From the NCBI GenBank assembly GCA_903830945.1, contig CAIKVT010000066.1, positions 1-44,196 on the forward strand: a stretch of DNA of 44,196 nt. Reading direction: 5' to 3'. The notes beneath the pieces were generated by a model. That model did no database searches. It had not been told where the DNA came from and worked only from the letters and a program-made list of their open reading frames with translations. Made by a program: the position numbers and the translations under genes. The stretch comes from an uncultured Elusimicrobia bacterium. Lineage in GTDB: Bacteria > Elusimicrobiota > Elusimicrobia > UBA1565 > UBA9628. Shown one piece after another: positions 436-44,196 of this stretch (within the stretch, counting starts at the first letter, position 1; every line of letters starts with the position of its first letter).

Positions 436-493
436 CGAACCTGCAACGAGTAATATCAGGACCTTGACCCCCGAAAGGGGGTTTCGTGTTTTA
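436..493 (+). ncRNA. Structured repeat element, copy 1 (candidate small RNA or leader)
   Basis: First of three near-identical ~58-nt elements. Parts in order: CGAA; stem CCTG (440-443) with CAGG (457-460); a loop containing ACGA (446-449); ACCTTGA; stem CCCCC (468-472), GAAA tetraloop, GGGGG (477-481); then TTTCGTGTTTT (482-492). The loop ACGA can pair with TCGT (484-487) in the tail, giving a pseudoknot, while GC stem plus T-rich tail also looks like an intrinsic terminator. Unlike copies 2 and 3, no convincing plus-strand promoter precedes it, and no plus-strand gene follows until 2422. A strong minus-strand promoter overlaps its 3' end, so it may be a relic or may be read as antisense. Confidence 0.55.
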
Positions 494-518
494 TAGTACG
501 CCTATCCCGCCTGGTCAA
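490..518 (-). promoter_or_regulatory. Sigma70-like promoter for the membrane gene at 291
   Basis: On the minus strand a TTGACC -35 box (518-513) and a TATAAA -10 box (495-490) are separated by exactly 17 bp. It would start a transcript near 483 reading leftwards through the reverse complement of structured element copy 1 towards the ATG at 291. Confidence 0.55.
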
Positions 519-551
519 CCTATGACCATTATTAGCGCCTTATCATCTCCG

Positions 552-2267
552 TCACTGACGTCTTTTGTCTATTAGCGATTGTACGGCGTCAGGTGTATTG
601 GTCTGAATCATGATGTTTGCACCCTGCTCGACGATATCCAAGAACAGACGCCCGAGGTCATCATGATAAACACCCTCGAATTGGGAGGTGTCAGTCTGCG
701 GGATCTGGTCGTAAAGTATCTTAAGATGGTGCTCACGCGCCCACGCGCGGATCCTTGGGTCGCGCATATGATTTAGATACTTGATCTCAATAATCTGAAT
801 AGCATAGGCCAGAAAAGGCTCCATGGCGCGGATCCATTCGTCGGCGCTGGTTTTAGAAGTGACGTTATCCGGGCTGGCCATGATCCTAATGTCCGGGTCG
901 ACCGCCCGAGCCAGCGCGGCTACACGAGGATGACGCACGGCGATGAACGCCTGGCCATGGGCCTTGGCGTGACCGAGGGCGGTCGATAGGTTTTGGAGCG
1001 CCTTGCGGGTGAATTCCTCGATCTTTTCGGTACTCCAGGAACCAATGATCCAATGCCAGTCGGAAAGGTCATAAAGGCGTCGGGCCAAATGATTGATCTC
1101 CTTAAAATCAAGGTAGAGAGCGATGGGTCCGGCCGCGATCGAACGCGGCAGGATCTGGCCGCTCGTCGAAGGAGGCCCGCGGGCTTCATAGGAATACTCC
1201 GGTATCTGAAGCTTCCCAGGGCGCTCGACACTTTTGAGCAGCTCCGTCAGGCTGATGAGTGGATATTCGCGCCCTGACGGACGGTCGAATATCTTAATCT
1301 GACCGTTGGAGCCATCGTCCCGATAATGACCTACACCGTCAAGAAGAAGGAAATCCCAGTGGCCTTCCTTTTGTCGCGCGAGCTGCGGGTACTCTTGCCG
1401 AAAGGCTTCGATCCTATGCTGCGGGGTCTGGTAGTCGCGCACCAGGACGTGGAATGTCGGATCATGATAGATGATGAACTGGTCGCCGGCCTGGCGAATG
1501 TCGACCTCAATGACGATGGGGCGTTTATGAGCGGCCTCGACGGAGTGGGCGATATTCCCCCAGGTGCTCTCGCCGGCGACGCCCCTGTAATCGTTCTTGC
1601 CATGAGCGACGACGACCGTTTCTTTAGAGCGGAGGAGTCTGTCCAGAACGCCTGGAGCGACACCCGGCACTGCGGCCACGTCTGCGTTCAAGGCTCCTTT
1701 CCGCGAAGTCAGCCCGTCCGTCTCCAGTGGCGGGGCTTCCTTCGCCCCGTCGAATATCCAGGAGGCCGAAGGGGCCTTTCTGGCGGCCTCGATCAGGGAG
1801 GCCATGATCCCAATCCTTCGGGAGCCTTCGAGGAGCGCCGCCTCTTTGAGGACGATCAGGGAGCGCCGGAGAGCGGCAAGCTCGGGGGCGGGCTGGGCTT
1901 CCAGGGAATCGATAAGCTTCTGAGCGGCCTGGGGCTCGGCCACGACTCTGGCGAGGACCTGGGCGGAGAGCCCGTCGATGGGCTCTTTTTCCTTCAGGGA
2001 GGAGATGTACGCCGCCGCCTTCTCTGGCTGGATTCGCCCGTCCTCCAAAAGCCGGACGAGTTTATCGGCGTGGAAGGAAAGATTGAAGTACTGGGGACTA
2101 TTTGGAGCGGTGAGCGAGCCAATGGAGAGATGGCGGACCAGGGTCTCTGGCAGCAGGGGAACGGCGATGGCGTTGGCTGCCGGAGCGGCAACGGTTGCTT
2201 TTGGGGAGACTCCGGCCTGCCCGAAGGCAGTAAAGGCCAGAGCGAAAACGAAAAGGCTCGTGCTCAT
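552..2267 (-). CDS. Secreted GDPD/PLC-like phosphodiesterase family protein
   Basis: 571 aa. The start at 2267 is chosen because it opens a signal peptide (MSTSLFVFALAFTAFGQA); the frame is open to 2414 but that extension is not protein-like. Residues 40-210 are a helical region of unknown role. From about 217 a glycerophosphodiester-phosphodiesterase-like TIM barrel is visible: VVVAHG (His222), IEVDI (Glu254, Asp256) and IIYHDP (His268, Asp269), the usual His and metal-site residues. The normal HRG...PENT segment is altered (AHGKNDYRGVAGEST), so the substrate may not be a glycerophosphodiester. Likely extracytoplasmic. It is monocistronic, with no clear terminator after the stop. Family is fairly sure; substrate unknown. 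Confidence 0.7.
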   Translation of the reverse strand: MSTSLFVFALAFTAFGQAGVSPKATVAAPAANAIAVPLLPETLVRHLSIGSLTAPNSPQYFNLSFHADKLVRLLEDGRIQPEKAAAYISSLKEKEPIDGLSAQVLARVVAEPQAAQKLIDSLEAQPAPELAALRRSLIVLKEAALLEGSRRIGIMASLIEAARKAPSASWIFDGAKEAPPLETDGLTSRKGALNADVAAVPGVAPGVLDRLLRSKETVVVAHGKNDYRGVAGESTWGNIAHSVEAAHKRPIVIEVDIRQAGDQFIIYHDPTFHVLVRDYQTPQHRIEAFRQEYPQLARQKEGHWDFLLLDGVGHYRDDGSNGQIKIFDRPSGREYPLISLTELLKSVERPGKLQIPEYSYEARGPPSTSGQILPRSIAAGPIALYLDFKEINHLARRLYDLSDWHWIIGSWSTEKIEEFTRKALQNLSTALGHAKAHGQAFIAVRHPRVAALARAVDPDIRIMASPDNVTSKTSADEWIRAMEPFLAYAIQIIEIKYLNHMRDPRIRAWAREHHLKILYDQIPQTDTSQFEGVYHDDLGRLFLDIVEQGANIMIQTNTPDAVQSLIDKRRQ

Positions 2268-2421
2268 TACAAAGATAGTATTATCTTCGCGAACATCAGA
2301 GGCCAGGGTCCTTCGCCCTCGACTAGTGGGCCTTTGGAACCATCTAAAAATCAGGACTTGTGGTATACGCGACTCGCAGGCCAAGTAGCCGATTATGCCA
2401 TGAAATAGATACACTCAATTC

Positions 2422-2979
2422 ATGCTCCCCGTGCTGATGCTCTTCCTCATCCCGATCGGCGGCGGCATCCCGGCTGGCGTGCTGCTGGCACGCGGCCATG
2501 GCATCGCTTGGCCAGTCACCATGGGCCTCTACCTCGTCTCCGACGTTATCCTGGCGTTCCTGTTCGAGCCGGTGCTCCGACTGCTGATCGCAGCTGGGCG
2601 CAGCATCCCCCCTCTCGCCCGCGCGACCGACGCCGTCCGACGCGCGATGGACCGGACCGTGGCCCAATACGGCGGCGGCGCGGGGCCGTTTGCTCTCATC
2701 ATGATTGCGTTCGGCGTCGACCCCATGACGGGCCGCGCCGCGGCGGCTGCGGCCGGACACGGATTCGTCTCGGGCTGGGCCATCGCCATCGCCGGCGACA
2801 TGATCTACTTCACCGTCATCATGGTCGCGACCTTGCGTCTAAACTCCGTCCTCGGCGACCCCAACCGAACCATGACGGTCATATTGGTCGCGATGATTTT
2901 TCTGCCCATGCTGATACGCCGCTTGAAATCAAAATGCGCCAAGCTGACCCTGCCGGGCGGCGGTCTTCAGGCCCCCTAG
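2422..2979 (+). CDS. Small multi-pass membrane protein, unknown function
   Basis: 185 aa, with about four to five hydrophobic segments (roughly 3-24, 31-58, 84-100, 113-138, 145-163), a GGGIP turn near residue 13 and a basic tail (RRLKSKCAK). The layout resembles small integral-membrane transporters, but I do not recognise the family with confidence. The Shine-Dalgarno sequence is weak. Its stop overlaps the convergent rsmH stop by 4 nt (2976-2979). It is divergent from the GDPD-like gene, so the 2268-2421 gap should hold both promoters; I could not pick clear -35/-10 pairs there. Confidence 0.6.
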   Translation: MLPVLMLFLIPIGGGIPAGVLLARGHGIAWPVTMGLYLVSDVILAFLFEPVLRLLIAAGRSIPPLARATDAVRRAMDRTVAQYGGGAGPFALIMIAFGVDPMTGRAAAAAAGHGFVSGWAIAIAGDMIYFTVIMVATLRLNSVLGDPNRTMTVILVAMIFLPMLIRRLKSKCAKLTLPGGGLQAP

Positions 2980-4037
2980 ACCCGCACGACACGCCAGAGT
3001 CTCGCCGAGCGCGAGCGCGGGTTCAGGCGGACCTCCTCAGGCGACGGCCGGCGCGGCTCCACAAGCGGCGCGCGCCACAACCCCGCGGTCGTCTGCGCGC
3101 CGAGAGCTCCGCCGACCAGCGCCTCCTCCCCGGAGTGGAAGGTCAACAGCACCGCCCGACCACCGGAGCGCAACAGCCACGGCAGGTCCCGGAGCAACTG
3201 GGCCAGAGCTTCGTGCTCGGAGTTCACGACGATCCGCAGCGCCTGAAACGTCCTCGCGGCAGGATGAGAGGAGAACGCGTCCTTCTTAAGAAACCGCCCC
3301 GCTCCCAGTTTCTTTGCGACGCCGACAGCCGCAGCGAGTTCGCGCGTCGTCCTGGGCGAGCGCCCCTTGGCGGCAAGGCCCGCCAGCGCCGCCGCAATCG
3401 CAGCCGCGTCAGGCTCATCGCCGAAGCGAGACAACGCCGCCGCGATCTCCGCCTCATCGGCGCGCGCAAGCCATTCGCAGGCGGTCTCCCCGCGCGAGCG
3501 GTCCATGCGCATGTCAAGAGGTCCGTCCGTTTTGAAGGACATCCCGCGCTCCGGCCGGTCGAGCTGCATGGACGAGACCCCGATATCAGCCAGAAGGGCG
3601 TCTACGTCGTAAATCTTGAGCTCGCGCAGAACCTTCGCAGCACCCGCATAGTTGCCGCGGCGGACAACGACGGCCGCTCCGCGCCGGCGTAGGCGCTTCT
3701 CGGTCCGCACGAGCTCCTCGCCATCGAGGTCGATGCCGATGACGGAACCCGCCGGACCCACTGCATAAGAAATCCGCGCCGCGTGCCCTCCCCAGCCCAG
3801 CGTGCAGTCGAGGACAGTCGCTCCCGACAGGGGCTCCAGAGCCTGCATCACCTCGTCAAGCATGACCGGAAGATGCGCGCCCGCCGGTGTCGATCCGCGG
3901 GCCTGCGCCTTGGCGACCTCGTCCGGAAAGCGCTCCGCGTTGAGTTCCTTATACTTCTCCTCGAACCGGCGTGGGTGCGTGCCCTGGTAGCGCTTGCGCC
4001 TGCGATGCGGCGGCCCGGCGGAATGATCTGGTTCCAT
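2976..4037 (-). CDS. rsmH: 16S rRNA (cytosine(1402)-N(4))-methyltransferase RsmH
   Basis: 353 aa. RsmH (MraW) methylates N4 of C1402 in 16S rRNA using SAM. Visible motifs: LPVMLDEVMQAL at about 56, the SAM-binding DCTLGWGGHA, DIGVSSMQLD followed by GPLDMRMD, LRIVVNSE, and TFHSGEEAL where the family usually has SFHSLEDR. An N-terminal extension of about 55 residues rich in Arg/Lys (PPHRRRKRYQG) is longer than usual. The ATG at 4037 follows a GGGAGA ribosome-binding site. The gene is usually in the dcw cell-wall cluster; here it stands alone. An extended -10 promoter lies at 4053-4061. Confidence 0.9.
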   Translation of the reverse strand: MEPDHSAGPPHRRRKRYQGTHPRRFEEKYKELNAERFPDEVAKAQARGSTPAGAHLPVMLDEVMQALEPLSGATVLDCTLGWGGHAARISYAVGPAGSVIGIDLDGEELVRTEKRLRRRGAAVVVRRGNYAGAAKVLRELKIYDVDALLADIGVSSMQLDRPERGMSFKTDGPLDMRMDRSRGETACEWLARADEAEIAAALSRFGDEPDAAAIAAALAGLAAKGRSPRTTRELAAAVGVAKKLGAGRFLKKDAFSSHPAARTFQALRIVVNSEHEALAQLLRDLPWLLRSGGRAVLLTFHSGEEALVGGALGAQTTAGLWRAPLVEPRRPSPEEVRLNPRSRSARLWRVVRV

Positions 4038-4052
4038 GCGGCTCTCCCGGGG

Positions 4053-4061
4053 AGTATACCA
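4053..4061 (-). promoter_or_regulatory. Extended -10 promoter for rsmH
   Basis: The minus strand reads TGG-TATACT (4061-4053), an extended -10 box with a near-consensus hexamer. No good -35 box lies 17 bp upstream, as is common for extended -10 promoters. Predicted start near 4046, giving a leader of about 9 nt that carries GGGAGA before the ATG at 4037. It is back to back with the plus-strand promoter at 4089-4118. Confidence 0.45.
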
Positions 4062-4088
4062 AACAGGCCCGGGGAGATAAAAAACTCC

Positions 4089-4118
4089 TTGACCTGCCGG
4101 GCCCGAATGCGCTATACT
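4089..4118 (+). promoter_or_regulatory. Sigma70-like promoter driving structured element copy 2
   Basis: TTGACC (4089-4094) and TATACT (4113-4118) with an 18-bp spacer. Predicted transcription start near 4125, about 10 nt before the conserved CGAACCTG that begins the element. Copy 3 has the same arrangement (TTGACG, 17 bp, TATACT), so the promoter and the element appear to travel together. Confidence 0.65.
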
Positions 4119-4134
4119 TCATTGCTGTTGATTT

Positions 4135-4191
4135 CGAACCTGTAACGAGAAATGTCAGGACCTTGACCCCCGAAAGGGGGTTTCGTGTTTT
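4135..4191 (+). ncRNA. Structured repeat element, copy 2 (candidate small RNA or leader)
   Basis: CGAA; stem CCTG (4139-4142) with CAGG (4156-4159); loop ACGA (4145-4148); ACCTTGA; stem CCCCC (4167-4171), GAAA loop, GGGGG (4176-4180); tail TTTCGTGTTTT from 4181. The ACGA loop can pair with TCGT in the tail. The consensus promoter just upstream makes plus-strand transcription likely. The RNA would either end at the GC stem and T-rich tail as a transcript of about 65 nt, or read on 42 nt to the small ORF at 4233 and the methyltransferase at 4340. It differs from copy 1 at only four internal positions, all in the first loop. Confidence 0.65.
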
Positions 4192-4232
4192 AGGGTCGCG
4201 CCCGGCGCCGGCGCGCTTAGTACAATCTCTCC

Positions 4233-4343
4233 ATGACATCCCTCTTGACGGACCGCCATGCCGCGGGGACAGTGGGGGTCTCCCTCCAAGAGCTACACGA
4301 GATACTGAGCGAGGCCGGCCCCGCCGCAGAGCAGGCTCCATGA
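4233..4343 (+). CDS. Small ORF (36 aa) translationally coupled to the methyltransferase
   Basis: ATG at 4233 to TGA at 4341-4343 encodes MTSLLTDRHAAG... ending EQAP. Its stop overlaps the start of the next gene in an ATGA (4340-4343), typical of translational coupling. The middle (SLQELHEILSEAG) is predicted helical and acidic. There is no strong ribosome-binding site. It may be a genuine small protein or a leader ORF that delivers ribosomes to the methyltransferase. I do not recognise a family. Confidence 0.4.
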   Translation: MTSLLTDRHAAGTVGVSLQELHEILSEAGPAAEQAP

Positions 4344-5035
4344 GTCCTTCGGGCCTGAAGATCCTAGCCTACGAGCTCACGCCTCTGGGCATACTATGCC
4401 TGCGGCGGCGCAAACTTCCATCCGATCCGGGGACTACGGTCACGGAGGTCACCCTCGATGGCGAATTCCTCATGAGCAGCCGCAACACGGCCTCCGAGCG
4501 GGCCCTGGCCGAATCCGCTCTCGAGATGCATCCGGGCCTGGAACTCAAGACCCTCGTAGGCGGACTCGGCCTAGGCTATACCGCGAGCGCCGCCCTGGCG
4601 TCGCCGCGCGTCGGAAGCCTAGAAACAGTCGAGCTCCTGCCCCAGGTCATCGCCTGGCTGGATCAACGGCTCTGGCCTCTCGCCGATGAGCTCAAGGCCG
4701 ACACACGCTTCCAGGCGGTCCAGGGAGACATCTTCAAGCTGCTTGCTGGGCCGCCAAAGAGGCGCTTCGACCTGATCCTCATCGATGTCGACCATTCCCC
4801 AGAGGAGCGCCTAGACGAAGCCAGTGGCTCTTTCTATACCGCGAAGGGTTTAGCGCGGGCCAAAAGGCATCTAGAGCCCGGAGGCATCCTGGGCGTATGG
4901 TCGTACTCCGAGTGCATCCCCTTTGGCGAGGCGCTGCGCAAGACGTTCGCGGAGGTCCGCATCCAGCCGGTACTCTTCCAGAACAGGCTCGCCGACACGG
5001 TCCGCACGGATTGGCTGTACTTCGGACGCTCTTGA
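4340..5035 (+). CDS. Spermidine-synthase-like SAM-dependent methyltransferase
   Basis: 231 aa, starting at the ATGA overlap with the small ORF (the open frame runs further upstream, but through the rsmH promoter and the structured element). It has a Rossmann methyltransferase core: LVGGLGLGYTA (about 71-81, motif I), the acidic end of beta 2 in LETVELLPQV, then a QGDIF element and LILIDVDHSP (about 150-159). The fold resembles the spermidine synthase family, but an N-terminal half-domain and a clear putrescine pocket are not seen, so I would not assign polyamine synthesis. Probably transcribed from the promoter at 4089 if the element is read through. Confidence 0.6.
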   Translation: MSPSGLKILAYELTPLGILCLRRRKLPSDPGTTVTEVTLDGEFLMSSRNTASERALAESALEMHPGLELKTLVGGLGLGYTASAALASPRVGSLETVELLPQVIAWLDQRLWPLADELKADTRFQAVQGDIFKLLAGPPKRRFDLILIDVDHSPEERLDEASGSFYTAKGLARAKRHLEPGGILGVWSYSECIPFGEALRKTFAEVRIQPVLFQNRLADTVRTDWLYFGRS

Positions 5036-5150
5036 AGCCAACCCCGTTGAAATTGCCTCGGCCGCGCCTGGCTAGGCAGAAGATGAGTCCGTGGCTGGGA
5101 CCGCGGGTCGGAGCCCTGTTACGGAATTATGAACAGCGGCCGCCGGCCTA

Positions 5151-5179
5151 TTGACGAAAGCGGCGCCATGGACTATACT
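5151..5179 (+). promoter_or_regulatory. Sigma70-like promoter driving structured element copy 3
   Basis: TTGACG (5151-5156) and TATACT (5174-5179) with a 17-bp spacer; the -10 box is identical to that of copy 2. Predicted start near 5186, about 12 nt before the element. Confidence 0.65.
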
Positions 5180-5197
5180 CCAAGTAGCCGCATTTTC

Positions 5198-5252
5198 CGA
5201 ACCTGAGACGAGCAATGTCAGGACCGAGCCCCCGAGAGGGGGTTTCGTGTTT
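5198..5252 (+). ncRNA. Structured repeat element, copy 3 (candidate small RNA or leader)
   Basis: CGAA; stem CCTG (5202-5205) with CAGG (5219-5222); loop ACGA (5208-5211); ACCGAG; stem CCCCC (5229-5233), GAGA loop, GGGGG (5238-5242); tail TTTCGTGTTT (5243-5252). Compared with copies 1 and 2 it has a one-base shorter spacer and GAGA for GAAA, which keeps a GNRA tetraloop. ACGA/TCGT pseudoknot pairing is kept. The next gene is 196 nt downstream (ferredoxin subunit at 5449). Confidence 0.65.
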
Positions 5253-5370
5253 CCGGCCGGTGCGCAGGCTCCCATTAGATTATCTTATGGCCGACGCTTG
5301 CACACGGCCAATTTTTGTTACCATATGGAAGTCGCTACACGGGGAACTGAATATATCCCGCGTGCCCTGT

Positions 5371-32807: not shown

Positions 32808-35800
32808 CTAAGCTAGGCGCAGGGTGAAGTCGGTCATCGTGTAGATGACCAAGCCGTCCACCTTCAGCAAGCCGTCCGCCTTGATGAGCCGGCGCGCATC
32901 GTCCACCGCGGTCACGCAGGCCTCTACGGTGACGAGTTTATTGGTTGGGATAACCTGGCCTCTGTAGAGCCAACCGTGCTTCTGGCCCAAAGCCATGGAC
33001 TCGAAGCGGCCCGATGCGCCTGGCCATCTCTCGCGCGCCGCGACCTTCATCAGCTGGATAAAGGATTCCAAGCCCAATGAGCCCGGACAGACCGGATCCT
33101 GATAGAAATGCGCCTTAAAGAACCACTCGGACGGGTCCACCCTCTTCGTGCCGCGGATGAAGCCCAACCCCCTCAACCCGCCGTCCGGCACATAGCAATC
33201 GACCGAATCGACCATCATGAGCATCTTATCCGGCATGCCCGCCTGCGCCAGGCTAGGCCGCAGACCACGCGCCAGCTCAGCCTGGGACGACGCATAAGAC
33301 GCAGCCCCGCGCACTCCGACCTGTGCGGAAAGAGCGCCTTTGGAGAAGAACCCGAACTCCGTGCTGCCCTCATAGACTAAACGCCCGTCGCAGCGCACGG
33401 CCATCTCATAGTCCTGGATGAGCATGCCCGCTGACTGCACGTTCTTGGTCATCTTGACCGTGGTGACAAGCGTCCCGACATCAGGGCCGATCTCTTCATG
33501 TTGGATGGCGGCCCCGCCCAGGTTACGGAAAGAAAGGTCGGTCTGACTCGACAAGGCCGAGCCCACGTAAGCGGCCAGCCAGCCGCAAGGCTGCAGCGCG
33601 ATTTCCAAGAGCACACCGAAAGGCATGGTTGGCTGGCCGTTGGACTTGAAGTACCAGGCATCCTTCGGCACGTTATATTCCGCGTCCACCACGCCGCCGG
33701 CCGCCAACTTGAACGCCTCGCAGCCCTCTATCCGGGTTATGCGGTCCAGGACCTGATATGGCGGGCCAGGCAGGCGGGCGATCACCCGCCCGGAGTCGAA
33801 GACGCGGTAGGGTTCGCCGAAAGCCTCAGAAGGCTTTCCTACGGCAAAGGCCAAGATGCGGTCGGTATCGAACAACGGAACCGGCGCCCCCCTTGAGGGG
33901 GGCGCCGGTGGCGCGGCAGCAAAGCTGCCGCGCTCATTCCATAACACCGTCAATGCGGCTTTATCCGTCCCCCCCATCCTCACACACATATCCGTAATGC
34001 GCACAATGGGCTTATCGTCCGCGTACATCAAAGCGTCGGCGATGGCGAAAGGCGCTGGGTCGAAGCCCAACTCCTTGACCTCCACCCGGTAATGGACCTT
34101 CTTCGTCGAGGCGATTACCTGGCCGCGGCAGTGCAGGCCGCTGGTGACCCCAGGCACAGGCTCGTACCAGACCTTAGACTTCTCCCCCACCCAGCCCTGT
34201 CTCATGAGCAGGATGCGCAAAGTGTGCAGGCAGCACTCGTACATCAAGGTACCGGGCATCACGTTGTCATCGGAGAAATGGCAGGTCAGATGCCAGTCGT
34301 CTGGCCGGATGTCCGCCTCGCCTTTGATGACGCCCAGGCCCCAGCGTCCGCCTTTGGGATCGAGCTCCACCACCCGGTCGACCAGCGCCATCTTCCCTGT
34401 GGGCAGACCCACCGGCTCGCGCAACGGTAAACCCGCGAAAGCCGGACCGAAGCAGGCGGCAAGGTCTCCCCGACGTAGAGCCAGAACCTGCTCGTCGGAA
34501 TACTTCTCGCGGCCGAACCCCGGCACCAGCGGGGCCCAGTCAGCCGGCAGCTTGCCCGGCTTGGGTGCAAGCTCCTCGGGCTTGAACACCACGCCCTTGC
34601 CCGCGGCCAGCTCCTCGGAAGTGAAGAATCCGGCGCAGCCCTTGCGCATGCTCAAAAGCGGCTGGCTGTTCACCATACTCTCGTAGTTGAAGAAGAAGAG
34701 CCACACGTCCCCGTGCCGGGCGAAACGGTCGATCTTGATGTCGTAGCGGATCACATCGCCCGGAGTGGGCAGGCCGCGGTGGAAGGTCACCTCGGCGTCG
34801 AGCAGCCGGTAGACGCGCAGGCCCTTAGTCTCGAGGTCGATGCCGAGATAACCAGATAGGAAAAGGTCCGCTTGGCCCGCCTCAACCGCGATGCAGGTCG
34901 GGATGCGGTTGCAGTCCAGATACCAGGCTCCGGCCTTCACGTCGTGCTCCGTCACCACCCCGCCGGACTTCAAGGAGCGCGGCTCTCCCGACACGCTCAC
35001 GATACGGTCGACGAGCATCAGCGGCTCGTCAGGCAGGCGCACCCGGGTCGGATAAGAGTCCACCTCGGAAAAAAGCGGGCCTAAGGCCTTGCCAATGGAT
35101 CCAATGGCGAATTCCATGCACTTTTCGCGGCCCATAAAGCAGTCCGTTTTAAAATCTCGCGCCGCAGGCGCGGAAATCGCGCCGACACCCCCTGGGGTGT
35201 CGGCGTCATTCTCGTCAGCCAGCCGAGTTGAGGGGGGCAATATCCGTTCTCTCCCCCCTCCCTTCATCAGCGCATTTTGAAACGCGATGTTCTTCAACTG
35301 CGCCTGGGCGAAATTCTGTGAAAGCCTAAGGAATGCCTCATGCGCTTTGAGTCCAGCCGCATGCGCGGCCAGCAACTGCTGCTGCAAGGCGGTCGGTACC
35401 ATCACGACGGCGAGAGCCGGTCGCTCCGGGACAGGCGACACGGAAACCGGGAAGGCATCCGTCAGGGAAGGCGCTACCAAAGCCATGACCGGCGCTTCGG
35501 TCTTTGGTCTAGGCCTCCAGATGATAGGCTTAGGCGCCCCAGCACCCAAGGGCACGCTCACGCGCGGACGAGCCGGTGCGGGATCCTGGTGGTCGGCCGC
35601 GCAGGAGGACAGGCCGTAGAGGGGCTTCAAATCCACCGGGATGCGCTCCGCGATGAGCTGGGCCAGCAGGCGCAGCACCGTAGAGACTTCGTCGCTGCCC
35701 CTCATGCAGGCCGAGCGGGCCGCGTGCGGCAAGGGGCCCAAGATCTTGTCGATCATCCGTGTGGCCGAAGCCTGGGGGCCCAGCTCGATGAAGACCCGCG

Positions 35801-38800
35801 CCCCGTCCTCGTAGGCTTGGCGCACCAACGCCGGAAAGTCCAGCGGGCGCGCGGCCTGGGCCGTGATGGAGTCCGCGGCGCTCTCCTTGGTGACCTCATA
35901 GGCCTTGCCCCAAGCCCCGCTGTAGAAGCGCACGCCGGCCGGCGCCGTGGTGGGCAGCAGATGAAGTTCCCGATACTGTTTTTCAACGAGTTCAGCGGCC
36001 GGGAAATGCACGGTGGAGACGCCCTGCAGAGGAAGGAACACGCAGCCCAGGCCCTGGACCACGTTGTCTACGGCCTTGCGATAACCGCCGACCACGCACT
36101 CGAACGGCGCGTTGACGATCAAGAGCGCCGCCCGCTCCATGCCTTTCAAGGCCATCTTGACCGTGTCCGCCGGACGGTCGATGACGCCCAGCACCCAGTC
36201 CATGCGCTCATCGGAGGACAGGTTCCAGAAGCGGCGCGCCGCGTCGCAGGGGCCGGCCAGATCGCTGGTGAACAAGCTCGACTGCTTCATCCGGCGCAGC
36301 ATCTCGTCGCGGCCGGTCCAGGCGCGCAGGGCGAAGAGCCCGGCGGTCTCTCCCAGGCTGTAGCCCACCACGAACCTGGGCTCGACGCCGAAGCCGCGCA
36401 CCAGGTCGCTCAAAGCCGTGGCATGGGCCACGGAGCCGAAGATCATGGCGTGGAAATCGGCGATAATGGCGGCCTCGGCCTTCGCCTCCCAGCCCTGCTC
36501 CCAGGAGAACCGCCACGGTGCGAAGCGTTCGGGCACGGACTGGCCGCGCAGGTAGCCGTTCTCTGCGTCGAGCCGCCGCAGGACCTCGGGCCATTGAACG
36601 CCCAGACCCACGCTCATGCCCAGGTACTGATTGCCCGAGCCCGGGAACACGAAAGCCAGCGCCTCGGCGCCGAAGGCGACGCGCGTGGTCACATGGATCC
36701 GGTCGCCCGATATGGGCCGCTCCGGGTTGTCGCGTACTGACTGCTCGGCCGCGGTCATCAGCTCAGCCAGGTCCACGACGCCGCACGCCACGAAAGCCAA
36801 CCCGAACTTGCGCTCCGGATGACTCCCCTGGGACGCCCACCAGCGGCGGGCCAGTCTCTCCACGCTGGAATCCGCATCCTGCGCCGCCAGCCAGGAACGC
36901 AGGGCGGCTAGACCGTCCAAGAGCCCGGCCGCGTCGTCAGCCTCGACTACGAAGAGTGCCTCATCTCGCGCGCCCAACGGCTGGCGCCGTTCCGTCGCGA
37001 CGCGCCCGCCCTCCGCAGCCTGAGGCACGGCCTCTAGAACGACATGGCCGCAATTGCCGTCCGTGGCCATGGAGCTCACACCGGCGCGGCGCGGCCCCTC
37101 GGCGCGGTTGCGCAGCCAGTACTGAGGCCGCAGAGGGACATGGAACCGCTTGGCCGCGGCCGCGAGCTCAGGCAGTGCCTGGAAGGGCCTCATGGGCGGC
37201 AATATCTCCTGATAGAGGCTCAGAGCCGCTTTGACAAGGCCTGCCAGAGCCGAGGCAGCCCCCGCGTGCCCAAGCTGGGACTTGACGCTGCCCAAGGCGC
37301 AGGGCAGGCCCGCTTCGGCCGTGCCGTAGAAATCAGCCAAGGCCTCGGCCTCGACCCGGTCCTCCGCGGGCGCGCCGCTGCCATGGGTCTCCAGGTAGCC
37401 CACTGTGGTGGGGTCCACTCCGGCATCGGCGTAGGCGCGGCCCAGCGCCGCAGCGTAGGCGGCAACGCTGGGCGCCGGCCGGTCCACCCCGCCTCCCGAA
37501 GCGAATCCCAGGCCCTTGATGACCGCGTAGACCCGGTCGCCGTCGCGCACCGCGTCGTCCAGGCGTTTCAAGATCAAAGCGGCCGCGCCCTCGCCCGGCA
37601 CAGGGCCGTCCGATGAAGAGTCGAAGGGCTTGGCCAAGCCGGCGCCGGTGAAGGGCCGTAGGGCATGGCTGCCCAGCACCGCGCGCAGGTCTCCGGAAAG
37701 GTCTACGGCGCCCGCGATGGCGACCTCGAGTTCGCCTTGCTGCAGAGCACGGACCGCCGCCTCCACGGCGCGCAGGCCGGAGTTCTCCTCCGAGGAGACG
37801 GCGAGGCTCGGGCCGCCGACATGGAACTCACGCGCCACGCGGCTGGCCACGATAGCGCCCAAGGCGCCCATGGTCCGATTGGCCGAAAGGGCCGGACCGA
37901 CAGCCTCGCGCAGGAGACGGATCCACTCGGCTTCATCCTCTGGCGAAAGGTCCCAGCCCAGTTTCTTGGCCCAGCGCCGCCCGGCCTCGGCTAAGGACCA
38001 GCGCAGATCGAAGTTGGTGGTGTTGAGGTCCAGGCCCAGGCCGATGAATACCCCTGCCGACTCTCCCGGAAATGACTTCAAGCCCGCGTCCTTGATCGCC
38101 TTGGCCGCTGTGTCGAGCATAAGAAGCTGCTGAGGCAGCATCTCCTCCATCTCCTTGGGCGGGATGCGGTAGTCAGCTGCCGCCACGCTCACCTCCGGAA
38201 GATAGTGCCCCGGGTAGCGGGACGCCTCGTTGCTGCCCCACCAGCGATTCTCAGGCATGGACAGCGCGGCCTGCGATTGTCCGCCCAGGACATGCTCCTG
38301 GAACCGCCGCAGACCAGAACAAGCCCCGAAGTTCGCCTCCATGCCTACGATAGCTATAGGGACATTCGCAGTCGCCGGCTCGACAGACACAGGCACGGCG
38401 ACGCTATGAACTTTGCGCCCTGGGAAGTTATACTCTTCGATCAAGACATGCGCGTTGATGCCGCCGAAGCCGAAGGCGCTGACCGCGGCGCGGCGAGGGG
38501 TCTTGCCATCCCGGCATTCCCAGCTCGAGCACTCGACGGGCACCCGGAAGGGGCTCTCCTCCAGAGCCAGCGCCGCGCCGGCCCGGGAGAAGTTGGCGCT
38601 GGGAGGCAGTAAGCGGCGCTGCAGGGCCAACAGCGTCTTCATGAGGCCGGCGGCGCCCGCGGCCGTAAGCAGGTGCCCGACATTGGACTTGACCGAGCCG
38701 ATAGGGCACTGTCCCGCGCTCCAGCCCCTCTCGCCCCAAAGTGCCTTGAGGCTCGCGACCTCGATGGGGTCTCCGGCGGGAGTTCCGGGCGCGTGGCATT

Positions 38801-39767
38801 CGACCAGGTCCACCTGGGACGGCGCCCACCTCGCTTCTTGATAAGCGGCACGCATGGCGCGCAGCTGCCCGGGCGTGTTGGGCGCCAGGAGGCTGCCGCC
38901 CACGTCATTGGAAAGGCCGATGCCCGCGATGACGCCGTAGACTCGGTCGCCGGCGCGCAGGGCGTCATCGAGGCGCTTTAAGACGAACATGCCCGCGCCT
39001 TCGCCTACGACCAGGCCGTCGGCGGACTCGTCGAAAGGCGCGGGCCGGCCCGAGGCGGAGAGTGCGCGCAGTTGGGAGAAGCCCATCTGTGTATAGAGGC
39101 TCTCCGGCCTGGACACGCCGCCCGTGATCATGGCGTCGGCGCGGCCCGCGCGCAGCTCGTCGCAAGCGAGCTTCAAGGCGTAGAGGGATGACGCGCAGGC
39201 CGCGTCCAGAGCGAAGCTCCCCCCGCCCAAGCCCAGGCCTCGCGCCACAACCCCTGCGGGCAGGCCGGCGACGAATCGATTGAGCGGGTCGGTCTTCCTC
39301 TCCGCAGACAGACGCCGCCCCAGCAGGCGCTCGCTGAGCACCGGCAGGAGCAGTTCCCGGGTCAAAGCGGAGGCTGAGTCAGTGGGCAGGACGATGTTGC
39401 CGATGATGACGCCCGTGCGCGTGCGGTCCAGGCCCTCGGTGCGCGCGTCGTGCCAGGCCGAGCGCGCGGCGTGCAAAGCCAGATGGAATACCGGATCGAG
39501 CCTGGACAAGAAGCCGGCTTCCAGCTCAAGGCCTTCAGGGTCCAGGCGGAACCCGTCTATAAGGCAGGCCTTGGCGCAGTAAACCTTGTCCGGCGCTGGC
39601 CGGGCCGGGTCGAAGGCCTCGGTAGGCGGCAGGATCCAGCGTCCCGAAGGAACCTCGCGGCTGGCGCAGCGGCGCAGGGCGATGTTGTCCCAGAAGCGGT
39701 CCAGCTCCGGCGCATCCGGGAAGATGCCGCCGATGCCGACGACCGCGATGGGGATACGGTCTTTCAT
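32808..39767 (-). CDS. Pfa-like megasynthase, KS-CLF-AT-DH-DH (PfaC-like)
   Basis: 2319 aa; the ATG at 39767 overlaps the lipoprotein stop (ATGA). KS (1-445): active Cys191 in DAACASSLYALK, His325 in ECHAPGTPAGD, His365 in KSNVGH. CLF (470-915): KS fold, but SSEENSG replaces the Cys site, as in PUFA synthase chain-length factors. AT (about 1035-1400): FVFPGSGNQYLGM, GYSLGE (Ser1137). A Pro/Ala linker with palindromes follows, then two FabA-like double-hotdog DH units (about 1600-1930 and 1970-2319) with CHFSDDNVMPGTLMYE and AHFYQDPVCPGSLGLE. PfaC usually lacks AT, so this is a variant. Acts with the upstream ACP/KR/DH protein; ER (PfaD) and the phosphopantetheinyl transferase are not in the window. 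Confidence 0.85.
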   Translation of the reverse strand: MKDRIPIAVVGIGGIFPDAPELDRFWDNIALRRCASREVPSGRWILPPTEAFDPARPAPDKVYCAKACLIDGFRLDPEGLELEAGFLSRLDPVFHLALHAARSAWHDARTEGLDRTRTGVIIGNIVLPTDSASALTRELLLPVLSERLLGRRLSAERKTDPLNRFVAGLPAGVVARGLGLGGGSFALDAACASSLYALKLACDELRAGRADAMITGGVSRPESLYTQMGFSQLRALSASGRPAPFDESADGLVVGEGAGMFVLKRLDDALRAGDRVYGVIAGIGLSNDVGGSLLAPNTPGQLRAMRAAYQEARWAPSQVDLVECHAPGTPAGDPIEVASLKALWGERGWSAGQCPIGSVKSNVGHLLTAAGAAGLMKTLLALQRRLLPPSANFSRAGAALALEESPFRVPVECSSWECRDGKTPRRAAVSAFGFGGINAHVLIEEYNFPGRKVHSVAVPVSVEPATANVPIAIVGMEANFGACSGLRRFQEHVLGGQSQAALSMPENRWWGSNEASRYPGHYLPEVSVAAADYRIPPKEMEEMLPQQLLMLDTAAKAIKDAGLKSFPGESAGVFIGLGLDLNTTNFDLRWSLAEAGRRWAKKLGWDLSPEDEAEWIRLLREAVGPALSANRTMGALGAIVASRVAREFHVGGPSLAVSSEENSGLRAVEAAVRALQQGELEVAIAGAVDLSGDLRAVLGSHALRPFTGAGLAKPFDSSSDGPVPGEGAAALILKRLDDAVRDGDRVYAVIKGLGFASGGGVDRPAPSVAAYAAALGRAYADAGVDPTTVGYLETHGSGAPAEDRVEAEALADFYGTAEAGLPCALGSVKSQLGHAGAASALAGLVKAALSLYQEILPPMRPFQALPELAAAAKRFHVPLRPQYWLRNRAEGPRRAGVSSMATDGNCGHVVLEAVPQAAEGGRVATERRQPLGARDEALFVVEADDAAGLLDGLAALRSWLAAQDADSSVERLARRWWASQGSHPERKFGLAFVACGVVDLAELMTAAEQSVRDNPERPISGDRIHVTTRVAFGAEALAFVFPGSGNQYLGMSVGLGVQWPEVLRRLDAENGYLRGQSVPERFAPWRFSWEQGWEAKAEAAIIADFHAMIFGSVAHATALSDLVRGFGVEPRFVVGYSLGETAGLFALRAWTGRDEMLRRMKQSSLFTSDLAGPCDAARRFWNLSSDERMDWVLGVIDRPADTVKMALKGMERAALLIVNAPFECVVGGYRKAVDNVVQGLGCVFLPLQGVSTVHFPAAELVEKQYRELHLLPTTAPAGVRFYSGAWGKAYEVTKESAADSITAQAARPLDFPALVRQAYEDGARVFIELGPQASATRMIDKILGPLPHAARSACMRGSDEVSTVLRLLAQLIAERIPVDLKPLYGLSSCAADHQDPAPARPRVSVPLGAGAPKPIIWRPRPKTEAPVMALVAPSLTDAFPVSVSPVPERPALAVVMVPTALQQQLLAAHAAGLKAHEAFLRLSQNFAQAQLKNIAFQNALMKGGGRERILPPSTRLADENDADTPGGVGAISAPAARDFKTDCFMGREKCMEFAIGSIGKALGPLFSEVDSYPTRVRLPDEPLMLVDRIVSVSGEPRSLKSGGVVTEHDVKAGAWYLDCNRIPTCIAVEAGQADLFLSGYLGIDLETKGLRVYRLLDAEVTFHRGLPTPGDVIRYDIKIDRFARHGDVWLFFFNYESMVNSQPLLSMRKGCAGFFTSEELAAGKGVVFKPEELAPKPGKLPADWAPLVPGFGREKYSDEQVLALRRGDLAACFGPAFAGLPLREPVGLPTGKMALVDRVVELDPKGGRWGLGVIKGEADIRPDDWHLTCHFSDDNVMPGTLMYECCLHTLRILLMRQGWVGEKSKVWYEPVPGVTSGLHCRGQVIASTKKVHYRVEVKELGFDPAPFAIADALMYADDKPIVRITDMCVRMGGTDKAALTVLWNERGSFAAAPPAPPSRGAPVPLFDTDRILAFAVGKPSEAFGEPYRVFDSGRVIARLPGPPYQVLDRITRIEGCEAFKLAAGGVVDAEYNVPKDAWYFKSNGQPTMPFGVLLEIALQPCGWLAAYVGSALSSQTDLSFRNLGGAAIQHEEIGPDVGTLVTTVKMTKNVQSAGMLIQDYEMAVRCDGRLVYEGSTEFGFFSKGALSAQVGVRGAASYASSQAELARGLRPSLAQAGMPDKMLMMVDSVDCYVPDGGLRGLGFIRGTKRVDPSEWFFKAHFYQDPVCPGSLGLESFIQLMKVAARERWPGASGRFESMALGQKHGWLYRGQVIPTNKLVTVEACVTAVDDARRLIKADGLLKVDGLVIYTMTDFTLRLA
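33880..33933. repeat. Twin in-frame palindromes in the DH-DH linker
   Basis: ACCGGCGCCCCCC (33880-33892), TTGA, GGGGGGCGCCGGT (33897-33909) form a perfect 13-bp hairpin. One base later GCGCGGCAGC (33911-33920), AAA, GCTGCCGCGC (33924-33933) form a perfect 10-bp hairpin. They encode the Ala/Pro-rich linker between the two dehydratase units (residues about 1945-1963). Confidence 0.65.
35158..35260. repeat. Cluster of in-frame palindromes in the AT-DH linker
   Basis: Three inverted repeats in about 100 bp: CGCGCC/GGCGCG (35158-35172), CGCCGACACCCC/GGGGTGTCGGCG (35180-35205, perfect 12 bp with a 2-nt loop) and GAGGGGGG/CCCCCCTC (35230-35260). They encode the low-complexity linker (about residues 1503-1537) between the acyltransferase and the first dehydratase unit. 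Confidence 0.6.
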
Positions 39768-40768
39768 TTCTCCTTGGCGGGAGAGATGGTGAAGGCCGCC
39801 GCGTCCTCGGCCCATTCGATGCCGGCGGAGTCGAGCCGCTGGACCACGCCCAGATAGCCGCCCTTGGCCGGGTCGGAGAGCTTGGCCGGCAGGAGGGTCT
39901 TGGTCGCGACGACGCGGATGGTCTCGGCCGAGAGGGGCGGATGGTCGTCGGGCATCTGAGCCACGAGGTGGACGCCGCGCTTGGCGGCTTCCTCATCGGG
40001 GTAGGCCCAGGTCTGGCCGGCCTTGACCTTGGCTTCAGGGACCATCTCATTAGGAATGAGGAGCGAAGTCTCGGAGTTCATCTGGACGTCGTAGAGATAG
40101 ATATAGGCGTCGCGTCGCGGCGTGACGGATATCCTGGCCTCGTCGCCTTCCATGAAGCGGTCGCGGGAAAGACCGAGCTCCACGATGAAGTCCTTGTCCC
40201 AGTCCGCGGGGCGCTCCTTAATGCAGGCCTTGAGGTCCACGTAAAAACCGCATTGACGGCAAGTCCCCAGGTCGCGGTACTCGTCGATGATGATCTTCTG
40301 GTCGATGATACAGCCGCGGCGCGTGGTGCGCAGGACGCTCTCGATGAGGTTGGTCTGACCGCGCAGGCTCTCCTGCTGGAAGTCGAGCGAGCGCTGGTTG
40401 ACGTCAACTCCCAGGAGGTCGCGCATGGCCGCTTCGAGAGATTTTTCGATGGCGCGAGCGCGGGCCTGGTCGCGGGATTCATTGCCGCCGACCGGGATCG
40501 TGGCGTCGGCCCGGACCCAAGTGCAGCCGCGCTTAGCGTCCTTCTCGCCGATCTGGGAGGATGGAGCCGGAGTCTCGGGAACTGGGGCTGGAGCCGGGGC
40601 GGGTTTTGATTTCCTTGCTTCACCCAGGCCGGGCTCGACCTCGTTGAATGATTTCTCGGCCCTGTCTTTGACTGCCGCATAGTCGGGTTTGGAGGTCGGG
40701 CCTGCTTTTCGATTATGGCAGGCGGCCAGACCGAACAACAAAGGCAGAACAAGAGCGACTCGCCTCAT
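39764..40768 (-). CDS. DUF4384/LPP20-like lipoprotein inside the megasynthase operon
   Basis: 334 aa, start MRRVALVL at 40768, 1 nt after the upstream stop, with GAGAG as ribosome-binding site; the longer frame runs through the Pfa-like gene. Lipoprotein signal LPLLFGLAAC with Cys17. A Pro/Ala linker (55-75) leads to an LPP20-like segment (ESRDQARARAIEKSLEAAMRDLLGV), a Cys-rich stretch (RDLGTCRQCGFYVDLKAC) and a C-terminal DUF4384-like beta domain (RISVTPRRDAYIYLYDVQMNSETSLLIPNE). Its stop overlaps the next gene. An outer-membrane lipoprotein in a lipid-synthase operon is unusual; function unknown. Confidence 0.7.
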   Translation of the reverse strand: MRRVALVLPLLFGLAACHNRKAGPTSKPDYAAVKDRAEKSFNEVEPGLGEARKSKPAPAPAPVPETPAPSSQIGEKDAKRGCTWVRADATIPVGGNESRDQARARAIEKSLEAAMRDLLGVDVNQRSLDFQQESLRGQTNLIESVLRTTRRGCIIDQKIIIDEYRDLGTCRQCGFYVDLKACIKERPADWDKDFIVELGLSRDRFMEGDEARISVTPRRDAYIYLYDVQMNSETSLLIPNEMVPEAKVKAGQTWAYPDEEAAKRGVHLVAQMPDDHPPLSAETIRVVATKTLLPAKLSDPAKGGYLGVVQRLDSAGIEWAEDAAAFTISPAKEK

Positions 40769-40769
40769 A

Positions 40770-43700
40770 TCACTCTCCCACCGCCACGGTATTACGCCGG
40801 AAAGCCTCACCCAACGACTTGTCCACCGTGCACTCACAACCTTCCATCCGCGCCGCCAAGATGCCTGCATGGTCCAGGAAGTCCATATCCGCTCCGACGA
40901 GCCCGTCCGCGGACTTCGTAACCCGGGCACGGATGACGCAACCCGTTTCAGGCATGCGCCGGTACTGCCGATAACGACCGACAAAGCTCGGCAAAGACGC
41001 GGCGCCCAGCTTCTCGCAGGTCCACAGGATCATGGCCTGGAAGGCGGCGTCGAGCGCCGCGGGATCCGAGAGCCACACATCGCGCCAAGGCAGCCTCATC
41101 CAATTCTTCGGCGGCAAAGCCTGTGCCGCATGCACCACGATCCCCGACTGGGAGCACCCGGCCACCAAGCGGATGAACCGCTGGTCCGGGCCATGGAAGA
41201 GGATATCCCGATAGGCTTTCTCCACCGTCCGGGCATAGGGCTGAAGCGGAAAATCAGGCATGACGGCCGGAGCGGCCGGCAGCTTGTCAGTCAAGACCAC
41301 GTCCGCGCTGGCATGCAACACCGAGCTCGGCCCCCGGAGCTCCGCTCTCACGATGTAGTTGCCGTCCGTTTTCACCGCTTTGCCGGCCAGAAGCGTCACA
41401 GCATACTCCGGACCTTTGAGCAGCACTCCCTTGTAGATGCGCATGCCGTCCAGCCCGTGAAAATGCAGTCCCGGATGGCCGTGCAAGGCCGTATGCGCCA
41501 GCCACTCCGCAATGAAGGCAAAAGGCAGGACCGGCGCGCCGTTGATCACGTGCGAGGACAGGAACGGAAAATCCGCGACCGAGACCTTCCGCTCGAAGAC
41601 GGACGCAAGATCCGCGACCCGGGCCTTCAAAGCCGCAACCGGCCTGGCGATGGCCACGACCTCGACCGAGCGACTATCCCCGGAGAGCTCGCGCACTAGG
41701 AACCCCCCCCCCTCCTCCAAACCGATCACGCCAACACCCTCGGAAGCGAAAAGCTTCTTCAAGGACTCGTTGACCATGCCCCCATCCCACGGGCCCCAAT
41801 TGAAGGCCGCGACCCGGCACCCATCCAGCCGCCGCGAGAGCAAGCGCGCCGTCTTGTTCAAGACCTCGTTTGCCATGGCGTAGTCGCTCTGCCCCGAGCG
41901 GCCGAAGCGCGCCGTAGACGACGAGAACAGCGCCAGCGCCCTGAGCTCGGAGAGGTCCAGCGCCTGGAGCAGATGCCTCAGGCCCGCGACCTTGGTCAAG
42001 AACACTGAATCAAACTGCTCGGGCGTCTTGTCGGCGATGAGCTTGTCCGCCAGGACCCCGGCGCCGAAGACCAGGCCTCGGATCGGACCGTGCTCGGCCT
42101 TGACGCGAGCCAAAGCCTCAGCCACGCCGTCAGCATCGCGCACATCGGCCTGGACATAGATCGTGCGGCTGCCCGCGGCTTCCAAGGCAGTCAAATGGGA
42201 GCGGATCTCACGGCCGGCCAGCACCGCGCGGCACAACTCGCCCGCCTCCTTGGGAGTCTTGTCTTGGAATCGACCCAGGATCGCCTTCTTGAGTTCAGAC
42301 TCGCCGCGGCAAGCCTTGAGCCAGTCTTCTTCCTCACCGGGAAGGGGACTGCGGCCCATGAGGACCACAGTCGGGCGGCAAGCCCTGGCCAAGGCTAGGG
42401 CCGCCTGTGCGGTCACTCCGCGCGCGCCGCCGACCACGAGGACCGCGTCCGCGCTCTGGAGCGGCAAGGTCCCGGCCTCGGGACTTACCGCATCCTCGAG
42501 CTCCAGTTCCTTGCGGCCGGAGGCGGAGAGGCCCACCTCGAGCGGTCCGCGGTAGAAGAGCTCAACGGCCACGGCCTCGGCCGCCGAAACCGCGTCGTCC
42601 CAGCCAGCAGCCAAGTCGAGCGCCTTGCAGGACACCTCGGGCCACTCGTGCGAAGCTGTCTTGGCCAGACCGGCCAAGGCGCCCTGGACCGGATCCTGCT
42701 CGGACTTGAGCCCAGAAAGGCCAAAAACGCCGTCGAGACGGGAAACCGTGGCAAAGACCGCGCCGCCGTCCTGACCGGCCCGGCGCAGGGCCGGCAGGGT
42801 TAGGCGGGCCAGACTGAAGGCATGGCGCATGAGGTCCTCGGAGGCCGGTGTCCAGAGCTGGTTCGGCTCCAAGCGCGTGACCGGCGCCAAGACCACCAGC
42901 GCCGCCAAGGCTTGCGGGACCTGCAACGATCCCAGATGGTCCAAGGAGACGACCTCTGCCTTATGACCGCGGGCCTTGAGGTTGCCTGCCAAAGCCTTAG
43001 CGAGGCCGTTGCCGTCGTTGGCGATCCAGATGGGCAGCTTGGCGTCAAGACGCACGGCCGGTCCATGAGCTTTACACTCCACGGCCCGCAGGACGGAGCG
43101 GGTCAGGACAGCAGTCGCAACGGAATCGGCCGTCGCGATCGGCTTTGGCTCCCGTTGAGGAGCTTCTCCAGACTGGGACAGATAAGCCGTGATCTGCCGC
43201 AAGGTGCGCAGGGTTCCCAGGTGCTCGGGCTTGACCTTGGGCGCCTGCGGGAGCTTCTCCTGGATCGCGGAAAGAATCTCCACGCGCTTGATAGAATCGA
43301 TGCCCAGGTCGGACTCCAGGTCCATGTCCAGGTTCAGGGACTCCGGCGGATAGCCGGTCTTCTCCGACACCATGGCGATGAGCACGGCCTCCACTCCGGA
43401 AGCCGCGGCCGCACTCGGCGCAGGGGCCGGAGCTCCGGCCGAGAGGAACTCGGCGATCTTGCGCAAGGTGCGCAAGGTTCCCAGGTGCTCGGGCTTGACC
43501 TTGGGAGCGGCAGGCAATTTCTCCTGGATCGCCGACAGGATCTCCACCCGCTTGATGGAATCGATACCGAGGTCGGACTCCAGGTCCATGTCCGGGTTCA
43601 GTGACTCCGACGGATAACCAGTCTTCTCCGATACCACGGCCAAAAGCACGGCGTCGACCCCAGAAGCCGAGGCTGCCGCAGGCGCAGGGATCACGGCGCC

Positions 43701-44196
43701 GGTCGAGAGGAACTCGGAAATTTTACGCAAGGTCCTCAGGGTACCCAGATGCTCGGGCTTGACTTTGGGAGCGGCAGGCAATCTCTCTTGGATCGCGGAG
43801 AGGATCTCCACGCGCTTGATGGAATCGATGCCCAGGTCGGATTCCAGGTCCATGTCCGGGTTCAGTGACTCCGGCGGATAGCCGGTCTTCTCCGAGACGA
43901 CCGACAGGAGCACGATCATGATGTTAGAACTTCCGGCCCCGGAGGGGCCGGAAGCCGCCCCGACGCCCTCAGGCATCGGAGCGTGCCGTTGGGGAGCGGG
44001 CTCGACGACTGGAGTCAGCGCGTGCCCCAAAAGGATCTGGTGCTGCTGCTCCACCAGAGACTGGAAAGACTTCTGGATGGATTCCTGGCCTTGGAGGAAG
44101 CGGGCGTGCAGCTCTGCCGTCTGCTCCTGCAGCCTCTGCAGAGCGTTCATGCTTTCCTGAGCCGACTGCAAGGTCGTTGCTGTTGAATTTCCGGCA
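40770..44196 (-). CDS. Pfa-like megasynthase, ACP3-KR-DH part (PfaA-like), 5' end outside the window
   Basis: The minus-strand frame is open to the right edge; a TTG at 44171 is not a real start because AGNSTATT continues upstream. Visible from the N-terminal side (numbered from that TTG): a coiled helix (1-50), three ACPs (85-157, 173-245, 259-333) each with LGIDSIKRVEIL (phosphopantetheine Ser117, Ser205, Ser293), a ketoreductase (about 570-800; VLVVGGARGVTAQAAL, SSSTARFG, SDYAMANEVL) and a PKS-DH-like hotdog domain (about 880-1125; HVINGAPVLPFAFIAEWL). KS and AT are expected beyond the edge. A 10-G run lies in the KR region. First visible gene of the operon. Confidence 0.85.
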   Translation of the reverse strand, partial: AGNSTATTLQSAQESMNALQRLQEQTAELHARFLQGQESIQKSFQSLVEQQHQILLGHALTPVVEPAPQRHAPMPEGVGAASGPSGAGSSNIMIVLLSVVSEKTGYPPESLNPDMDLESDLGIDSIKRVEILSAIQERLPAAPKVKPEHLGTLRTLRKISEFLSTGAVIPAPAAASASGVDAVLLAVVSEKTGYPSESLNPDMDLESDLGIDSIKRVEILSAIQEKLPAAPKVKPEHLGTLRTLRKIAEFLSAGAPAPAPSAAAASGVEAVLIAMVSEKTGYPPESLNLDMDLESDLGIDSIKRVEILSAIQEKLPQAPKVKPEHLGTLRTLRQITAYLSQSGEAPQREPKPIATADSVATAVLTRSVLRAVECKAHGPAVRLDAKLPIWIANDGNGLAKALAGNLKARGHKAEVVSLDHLGSLQVPQALAALVVLAPVTRLEPNQLWTPASEDLMRHAFSLARLTLPALRRAGQDGGAVFATVSRLDGVFGLSGLKSEQDPVQGALAGLAKTASHEWPEVSCKALDLAAGWDDAVSAAEAVAVELFYRGPLEVGLSASGRKELELEDAVSPEAGTLPLQSADAVLVVGGARGVTAQAALALARACRPTVVLMGRSPLPGEEEDWLKACRGESELKKAILGRFQDKTPKEAGELCRAVLAGREIRSHLTALEAAGSRTIYVQADVRDADGVAEALARVKAEHGPIRGLVFGAGVLADKLIADKTPEQFDSVFLTKVAGLRHLLQALDLSELRALALFSSSTARFGRSGQSDYAMANEVLNKTARLLSRRLDGCRVAAFNWGPWDGGMVNESLKKLFASEGVGVIGLEEGGGFLVRELSGDSRSVEVVAIARPVAALKARVADLASVFERKVSVADFPFLSSHVINGAPVLPFAFIAEWLAHTALHGHPGLHFHGLDGMRIYKGVLLKGPEYAVTLLAGKAVKTDGNYIVRAELRGPSSVLHASADVVLTDKLPAAPAVMPDFPLQPYARTVEKAYRDILFHGPDQRFIRLVAGCSQSGIVVHAAQALPPKNWMRLPWRDVWLSDPAALDAAFQAMILWTCEKLGAASLPSFVGRYRQYRRMPETGCVIRARVTKSADGLVGADMDFLDHAGILAARMEGCECTVDKSLGEAFRRNTVAVGE
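41703..41712. repeat. Run of ten C (ten G in the coding strand)
   Basis: A 10-base homopolymer in frame within the KR-DH segment of the PfaA-like gene, encoding three glycines (EEGGGFLV). Such tracts are slippage-prone in polymerases and in sequencing. Confidence 0.8.
43173..43919. repeat. Tandem ACP coding repeats, 264-bp period
   Basis: Three ACP modules spaced exactly 88 residues apart (serines 117, 205, 293), with long identical runs such as DSIKRVEILSAIQE and KVKPEHLGTLRTLR. The Ala/Pro linkers between them differ more. A 16-bp perfect palindrome (43425-43440) sits in the linker between ACP2 and ACP3. Confidence 0.85.
43930..43954. repeat. In-frame palindrome before the first ACP
   Basis: CTTCCGGCCCC (43930-43940), GGA, GGGGCCGGAAG (43944-43954) form a perfect 11-bp hairpin encoding the Gly/Ser-rich linker just upstream of ACP1. 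Confidence 0.6.

Follow-up and report, generated by a model that had tools for sequence, protein, structure and literature searches.

The window analyzed here, a stretch of 44,196 nucleotides, is one of the 84 contigs of a 3.24-Mb genome from Elusimicrobiota, and it contains three intergenic copies of an element of ~60 nt each, all on the + strand where the original prediction had placed them. Copy 1 occupies positions 434-493, and copies 2 and 3 occupy positions 4133-4191 and 5196-5253, respectively. The exact core pattern of the element has four matches in the 3.24-Mb genome and none for the reversed control, with the fourth copy located on contig C78 (G000:C78:1350-1412, minus strand). An alignment of these four copies, all from the same genome, has 49 of ~58 columns invariant. 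The genes downstream of the copies in the window encode a protein with a weak methyltransferase domain and a 4Fe-4S protein that is followed by 2-oxoacid oxidoreductase-like genes, the latter recognized by eye. An RsmH/MraW methyltransferase gene (PF01795; 2976-4037, minus strand) is divergent from copy 2, and positions 32808-44171 of the minus strand hold two very large ORFs that by eye resemble polyunsaturated-fatty-acid/polyketide-type synthases. Predicted sigma-70 promoters precede copies 2 and 3 on the + strand, with the same boxes and spacers that had been described previously: the first lies at 4089-4118 (TTGACC at 4089-4094, an 18-bp spacer, and TATACT at 4113-4118) and the second at 5151-5179 (TTGACG at 5151-5156, a 17-bp spacer, and TATACT at 5174-5179). 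Copy 2 matches its G003 counterpart at 62/62 positions, and copy 3 matches those in the genomes G003 and G004 at 61/61 positions. Since these elements are 100% identical while their flanks of 20-100 nt are 47-76% identical (random DNA being ~48%), the comparison indicates that the element is under strong selection.

From 5' to 3', the element consists of a short conserved UUCGAA, a hairpin (P1), a linker, a second hairpin (P3), and a U-rich tail. By eye, UUCGAA may bear some similarity to tRNA T-loops and to helix 31 of 16S. On the + strand of copy 2, P1 spans positions 4139-4159 and pairs CCTG (4139-4142) with CAGG (4156-4159) around a 13-nt conserved loop, P3 pairs CCCCC with GGGGG within positions 4167-4180, and the T-rich tail TTTCGTGTTT lies 3' of P3 at 4181-4190. 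Both stems had been proposed in the original prediction with the reservation that covariation was absent, which is accurate for the window but not for its relatives, where P1 and P3 both covary. Across the 55 divergent copies of alignment A6, the third pair of P1 is UA in 30 copies, CG in 22, AU in two, and GC in one, and at locus L344 three of the four P1 pairs are altered on both sides. P3 varies in both sequence and length among the 55 copies, with its pairing kept. Standard pairs fill 93.4% of the cells of these copies vs. 86.8% in shuffles, none of 500 shuffles scored as high, and sliding the partners by 1-3 columns reduces the standard pairs to 29-61%. Because both stems covary across 55 divergent copies, we conclude that P1 and P3 are covariation-supported stems and that the element is a structured RNA.

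The near-invariant unpaired parts of the element are the P1 loop ACNAGNAAU and the tail UUYGUGUUU, in which the two conserved G's would exceed the needs of a plain terminator. A coding role for the AUG within the loop was rejected, as 28 of the 105 distinct sequences have an A in place of its G. The original prediction had also described the 3' stem and T-rich tail as terminator-like, and this description agrees with both the covariation of the hairpin and the conservation of the tail. The pseudoknot that was proposed between ACGA and UCGU did not hold, as 24 of the 55 divergent copies have a non-standard pair at its third position. A nested closing helix (CGAA/UUYG) that would join the 5' end to the tail fits 98.6% of cells, because the tail base that varies is a pyrimidine in almost all copies and faces a G that hardly changes. 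Only one side of this helix varies among the 55 copies, with no two-sided change, and single-sequence folding yielded no energy gain for it; therefore, we regard the closing helix as only possible.

A search of the window with the Rfam 15 covariance models returned no match above the gathering threshold, and permissive settings (E up to 5) returned only two unrelated weak matches, both elsewhere. Of the two covariance models that were built for the element, R1 (from the four copies of this genome) matched 7/7 genomes in the genus, 35/44 in the family, 45/56 in the order, and 69/341 in the phylum, and R2 (from 55 divergent copies) matched 68/341 in the phylum. It should be noted that the carrier genomes are mostly draft assemblies, that copies from related genomes are not independent, and that the search tool itself describes its E-values, usually 1e-8 to 1e-22 for R1, as approximate. 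Each carrier genome has one to five copies. Beyond the order, the matches fall in further families of this class, mainly in f8, and in a pattern scan of named genomes the carriers among the matches listed were all labelled Elusimicrobia (L037, L045, and L068). None of the 44 genomes of other phyla that were chosen for a partial pattern match and then searched whole with the model carries the element, and neither a nucleotide-similarity search of plasmid and phage collections nor a strict pattern search of viral contigs found a match to it. Additional matches to the pattern, from viral contigs and from other phyla, were discarded since their fit to the model was not convincing. Three false matches (L333:4952, L370:5073, and L371:4989) were likewise removed from the copy set, the last two of which overlap tRNA-Asn and tRNA-Cys. 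Open-licence literature yielded nothing matching the element, and no title or abstract among the papers that mention both Elusimicrobia and small RNA deals with regulatory RNA in these bacteria. With no Rfam match and many copies in relatives that carry compensatory changes, the suspected new family is borne out, and we conclude that the element is an undescribed, conserved structured RNA family of the class Elusimicrobia. Little seems to be known of regulatory RNA in this group, and the two covariance models together with >110 copies are enough for an Rfam-style family entry.

Beyond the earlier claims, the element is linked to the initiator tRNA gene. Leaving out the three false matches, we classified by pattern the settings of 113 copies, drawn from both the order and the class, and found 41 to be located directly 3' of a tRNA-Met(CAT) gene, with a gap of 2-21 nt where the tRNA was called by aragorn. 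The tRNA next to the element ends in CCCCCGCAACCA, which is the mark of an initiator tRNA. Another six copies were assigned to a second class, in which a remnant of the tRNA-fMet 3' end precedes the element; among these, L292:2226 looks doubtful by eye and L286:32 is truncated by the end of its contig. The remaining 66 have neither setting. Copy 1, a former tRNA-fMet trailer, is itself preceded by such a remnant (ATCCAGCCCCCGCAACCAATTT; 407-428, + strand), which resembles an integration scar and from which the rest of the tRNA is missing. In its counterpart in G003 (L278:8522), the full tRNA is still present. The same genome as the window has an intact tRNA-fMet without the element on contig C60 (G000:C60, T-arm to CCA end at 123568-123592; L372), flanked by ORFs that resemble a large serine recombinase and a tyrosine recombinase, as read from their sequences and not from a profile. 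A mobile element likely integrated at the 3' end of tRNA-fMet and thereby parted the tRNA from its old trailer. At further loci (L409, L428, L429, and L430; L392, L397, and L415), tRNA-fMet trailers lack the full element but show, before the terminator, either motifs resembling ACGAGAAA or a hairpin of TTTCTCGACGAGAAA. These trailers are possibly an older form of the element motif.

The setting of a copy also distinguishes whether a promoter is predicted for it. We scanned for a TATAAT-like box (≥5/6 matches) located 14-28 nt upstream and for paired -35/-10 boxes (≥9/12 matches), using dinucleotide shuffles for comparison. A TATAAT-like box was found in 43 of 65 non-tRNA copies vs. 5.4 ± 2.1 in shuffles, and paired boxes were found in 32 of the 65 vs. 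1.9. The tRNA-linked copies yielded a single box among 40, vs. 1.0 in shuffles. Thus, the 41 tRNA-linked copies have the arrangement of tRNA 3' trailers, being immediately 3' of the tRNA on the same strand with no promoter of their own, while the stand-alone copies mostly combine two features of a stand-alone sRNA, namely a predicted promoter directly upstream and a conserved secondary structure (P1 and P3). From these counts, the element would therefore be either co-transcribed with the tRNA or transcribed from its own predicted start, which is ~6-13 nt 5' of the element in the stand-alone copies. In six copies that start with AACGAACC or ACCGAACC (L292:2226, L296:7522, L301:5122, L314:6985, L319:3552, and L332:1069), a palindrome, TGACGN4CG(T/A)CA, is present at exactly -42. 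It is probably a regulator site and suggests that this sub-group may be separately regulated. Because the family is conserved and is found either as a tRNA trailer or behind its own promoter, we favor a small regulatory RNA reading and consider it fairly probable that these are small structured RNAs of ~65-75 nt, derived from the initiator tRNA trailer or from their own promoter, with a terminator-like end.

The alternative that survives best is that the element is a specialized intrinsic terminator of tRNA-fMet and other transcripts with no function as a free RNA. It does sit where the terminator of tRNA-fMet belongs, convergent genes often end 5-20 nt from it, and in 40 regions of relatives that have tRNA-fMet but no detected element beside it, most of the tRNA genes have an ordinary hairpin of the terminator type, with a run of T's, after them. 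Since these element-free relatives mostly use plain terminators at this position, the tRNA-linked role of the element is either dispensable or terminator-like. However, a terminator has no need for a conserved UUCGAA, the P1 loop sequence, the G's of the tail, or P1 itself, and one would not expect to find it directly 3' of a promoter of its own, where no other sequence is transcribed first. We therefore consider a mere terminator unlikely.

The original prediction had envisaged a possible riboswitch-like family with a switch-like design. A further alternative is a cis-regulatory leader (riboswitch or attenuator) that would control the downstream gene via the terminator-like hairpin. Using a simple, home-made hexamer caller for gene calls, the next gene downstream was found to be co-directional in 41 of 62 callable stand-alone copies and convergent in 21; in 15 of the latter, a promoter-like box precedes the element. 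With co-directional genes outnumbering convergent ones roughly two to one, a cis effect may apply to some copies. For example, several genomes have genes resembling ABC-F ATPases within tens of nt 3' of the element (L302:9089-10900; also L283, L289, L324, L326, and L331), which were identified from an MPILLSCQ-type N-terminal sequence. Likewise, copy 4 and its counterparts are followed after ~7-15 nt by a gene for a small conserved protein of ~50 aa (MKMHLFEF...; about 1190-1340 of the minus strand in L005; also L280, L278, and L293), and a Pfam search with the L005 protein yielded no match. However, the downstream genes differ widely, and their comparison revealed no consistent, functionally related set. 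Some of them also have a -10-like box 3' of the element, such as the TACAAT at 4221-4226 (+ strand), which lies between copy 2 and a closely following ATG at 4233, a layout that is repeated in L279, L303, L310, and L330. Accordingly, the gene after copy 2 may have its own promoter, independent of read-through. Moreover, a switch at the tRNA would control nothing consistent, and the pseudoknot that was meant to compete with the terminator is unsupported. The neighboring genes thus speak against cis regulation as the general function but leave room for it at some loci, and with downstream genes so diverse and about a third of them convergent, we find a general riboswitch or leader function quite improbable. 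Finally, it is highly improbable that the element is mobile or recombination-associated DNA spread by integrases using the tRNA-fMet 3' end, as could be imagined from the tRNA-fMet remnants before some copies (copy 1 included) and from the recombinase-like genes around the intact tRNA-fMet, given that genomes have so few copies, that positions are shared within the genus, that the covariation is typical of RNA, that promoters occur at a fixed distance, that the plasmid, phage, and viral searches mentioned above found no match, and that integration into the tRNA displacing the old trailer explains the remnants.

Returning to the small RNA reading, we infer its transcription, termination, and action in trans as follows. 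The RNA would have two sources. In one, the initiator tRNA-fMet transcript would carry it as a 3' trailer, from which it is presumably freed during tRNA processing; in the other, it would be transcribed from the stand-alone sigma-70 promoters. In both cases, P3 and the tail would probably end transcription, and the released RNA may act in trans upon a protein or another RNA via its conserved loop. A search for Hfq (PF17209) was negative in all seven genomes of the genus (0/7), whereas it was positive in 5 of 14 control genomes. There is thus no indication of a base-pairing sRNA of the Hfq type, and because no Hfq homologue was found in these seven genomes, a protein-binding role or Hfq-independent pairing seems more likely. 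As a further conjecture, which we consider rather unlikely, each initiator tRNA transcript across the class might free one structured sRNA that tunes or reports translation-initiation capacity through a protein partner, with copies under other promoters adding further inputs to the same target. In any case, it is unusual for a conserved RNA to be linked to the initiator tRNA gene and to have promoter-driven paralogues as well.

Among known systems, the guanidine-III (ykkC-III) riboswitch has the short strings ACGAG and UCAGGAC in common with the element. The element differs from it in having no corresponding Rfam match at E-values up to 5, in pairing CAGG within P1, and in lacking a consistent downstream gene. 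Sibling sRNAs of bacteria are encoded by several near-identical genes, each with a separate promoter. This is similar to the few related copies of the element per genome, most of whose non-tRNA copies have both a promoter and a terminator-like end, and to the promoter palindrome shared by one of its sub-groups; the element differs in its lack of an Rfam match and in that part of its copies are tRNA trailers. The remaining parallel is the leuZ 3'ETS of E. coli and Salmonella, which is described in PMC5222698 (citing Lalaouna et al. 2015) as a tRNA-trailer sRNA processed by RNase E and as an Hfq-dependent sponge derived from a polycistronic leucine tRNA transcript. Like it, the element would be a small RNA in a tRNA 3' trailer that begins a few nt past the tRNA end, whereas it differs in that it occurs in a genus with no Hfq match in its seven genomes, follows the initiator tRNA, has a covariation-supported structure, and also exists as promoter-driven stand-alone copies.
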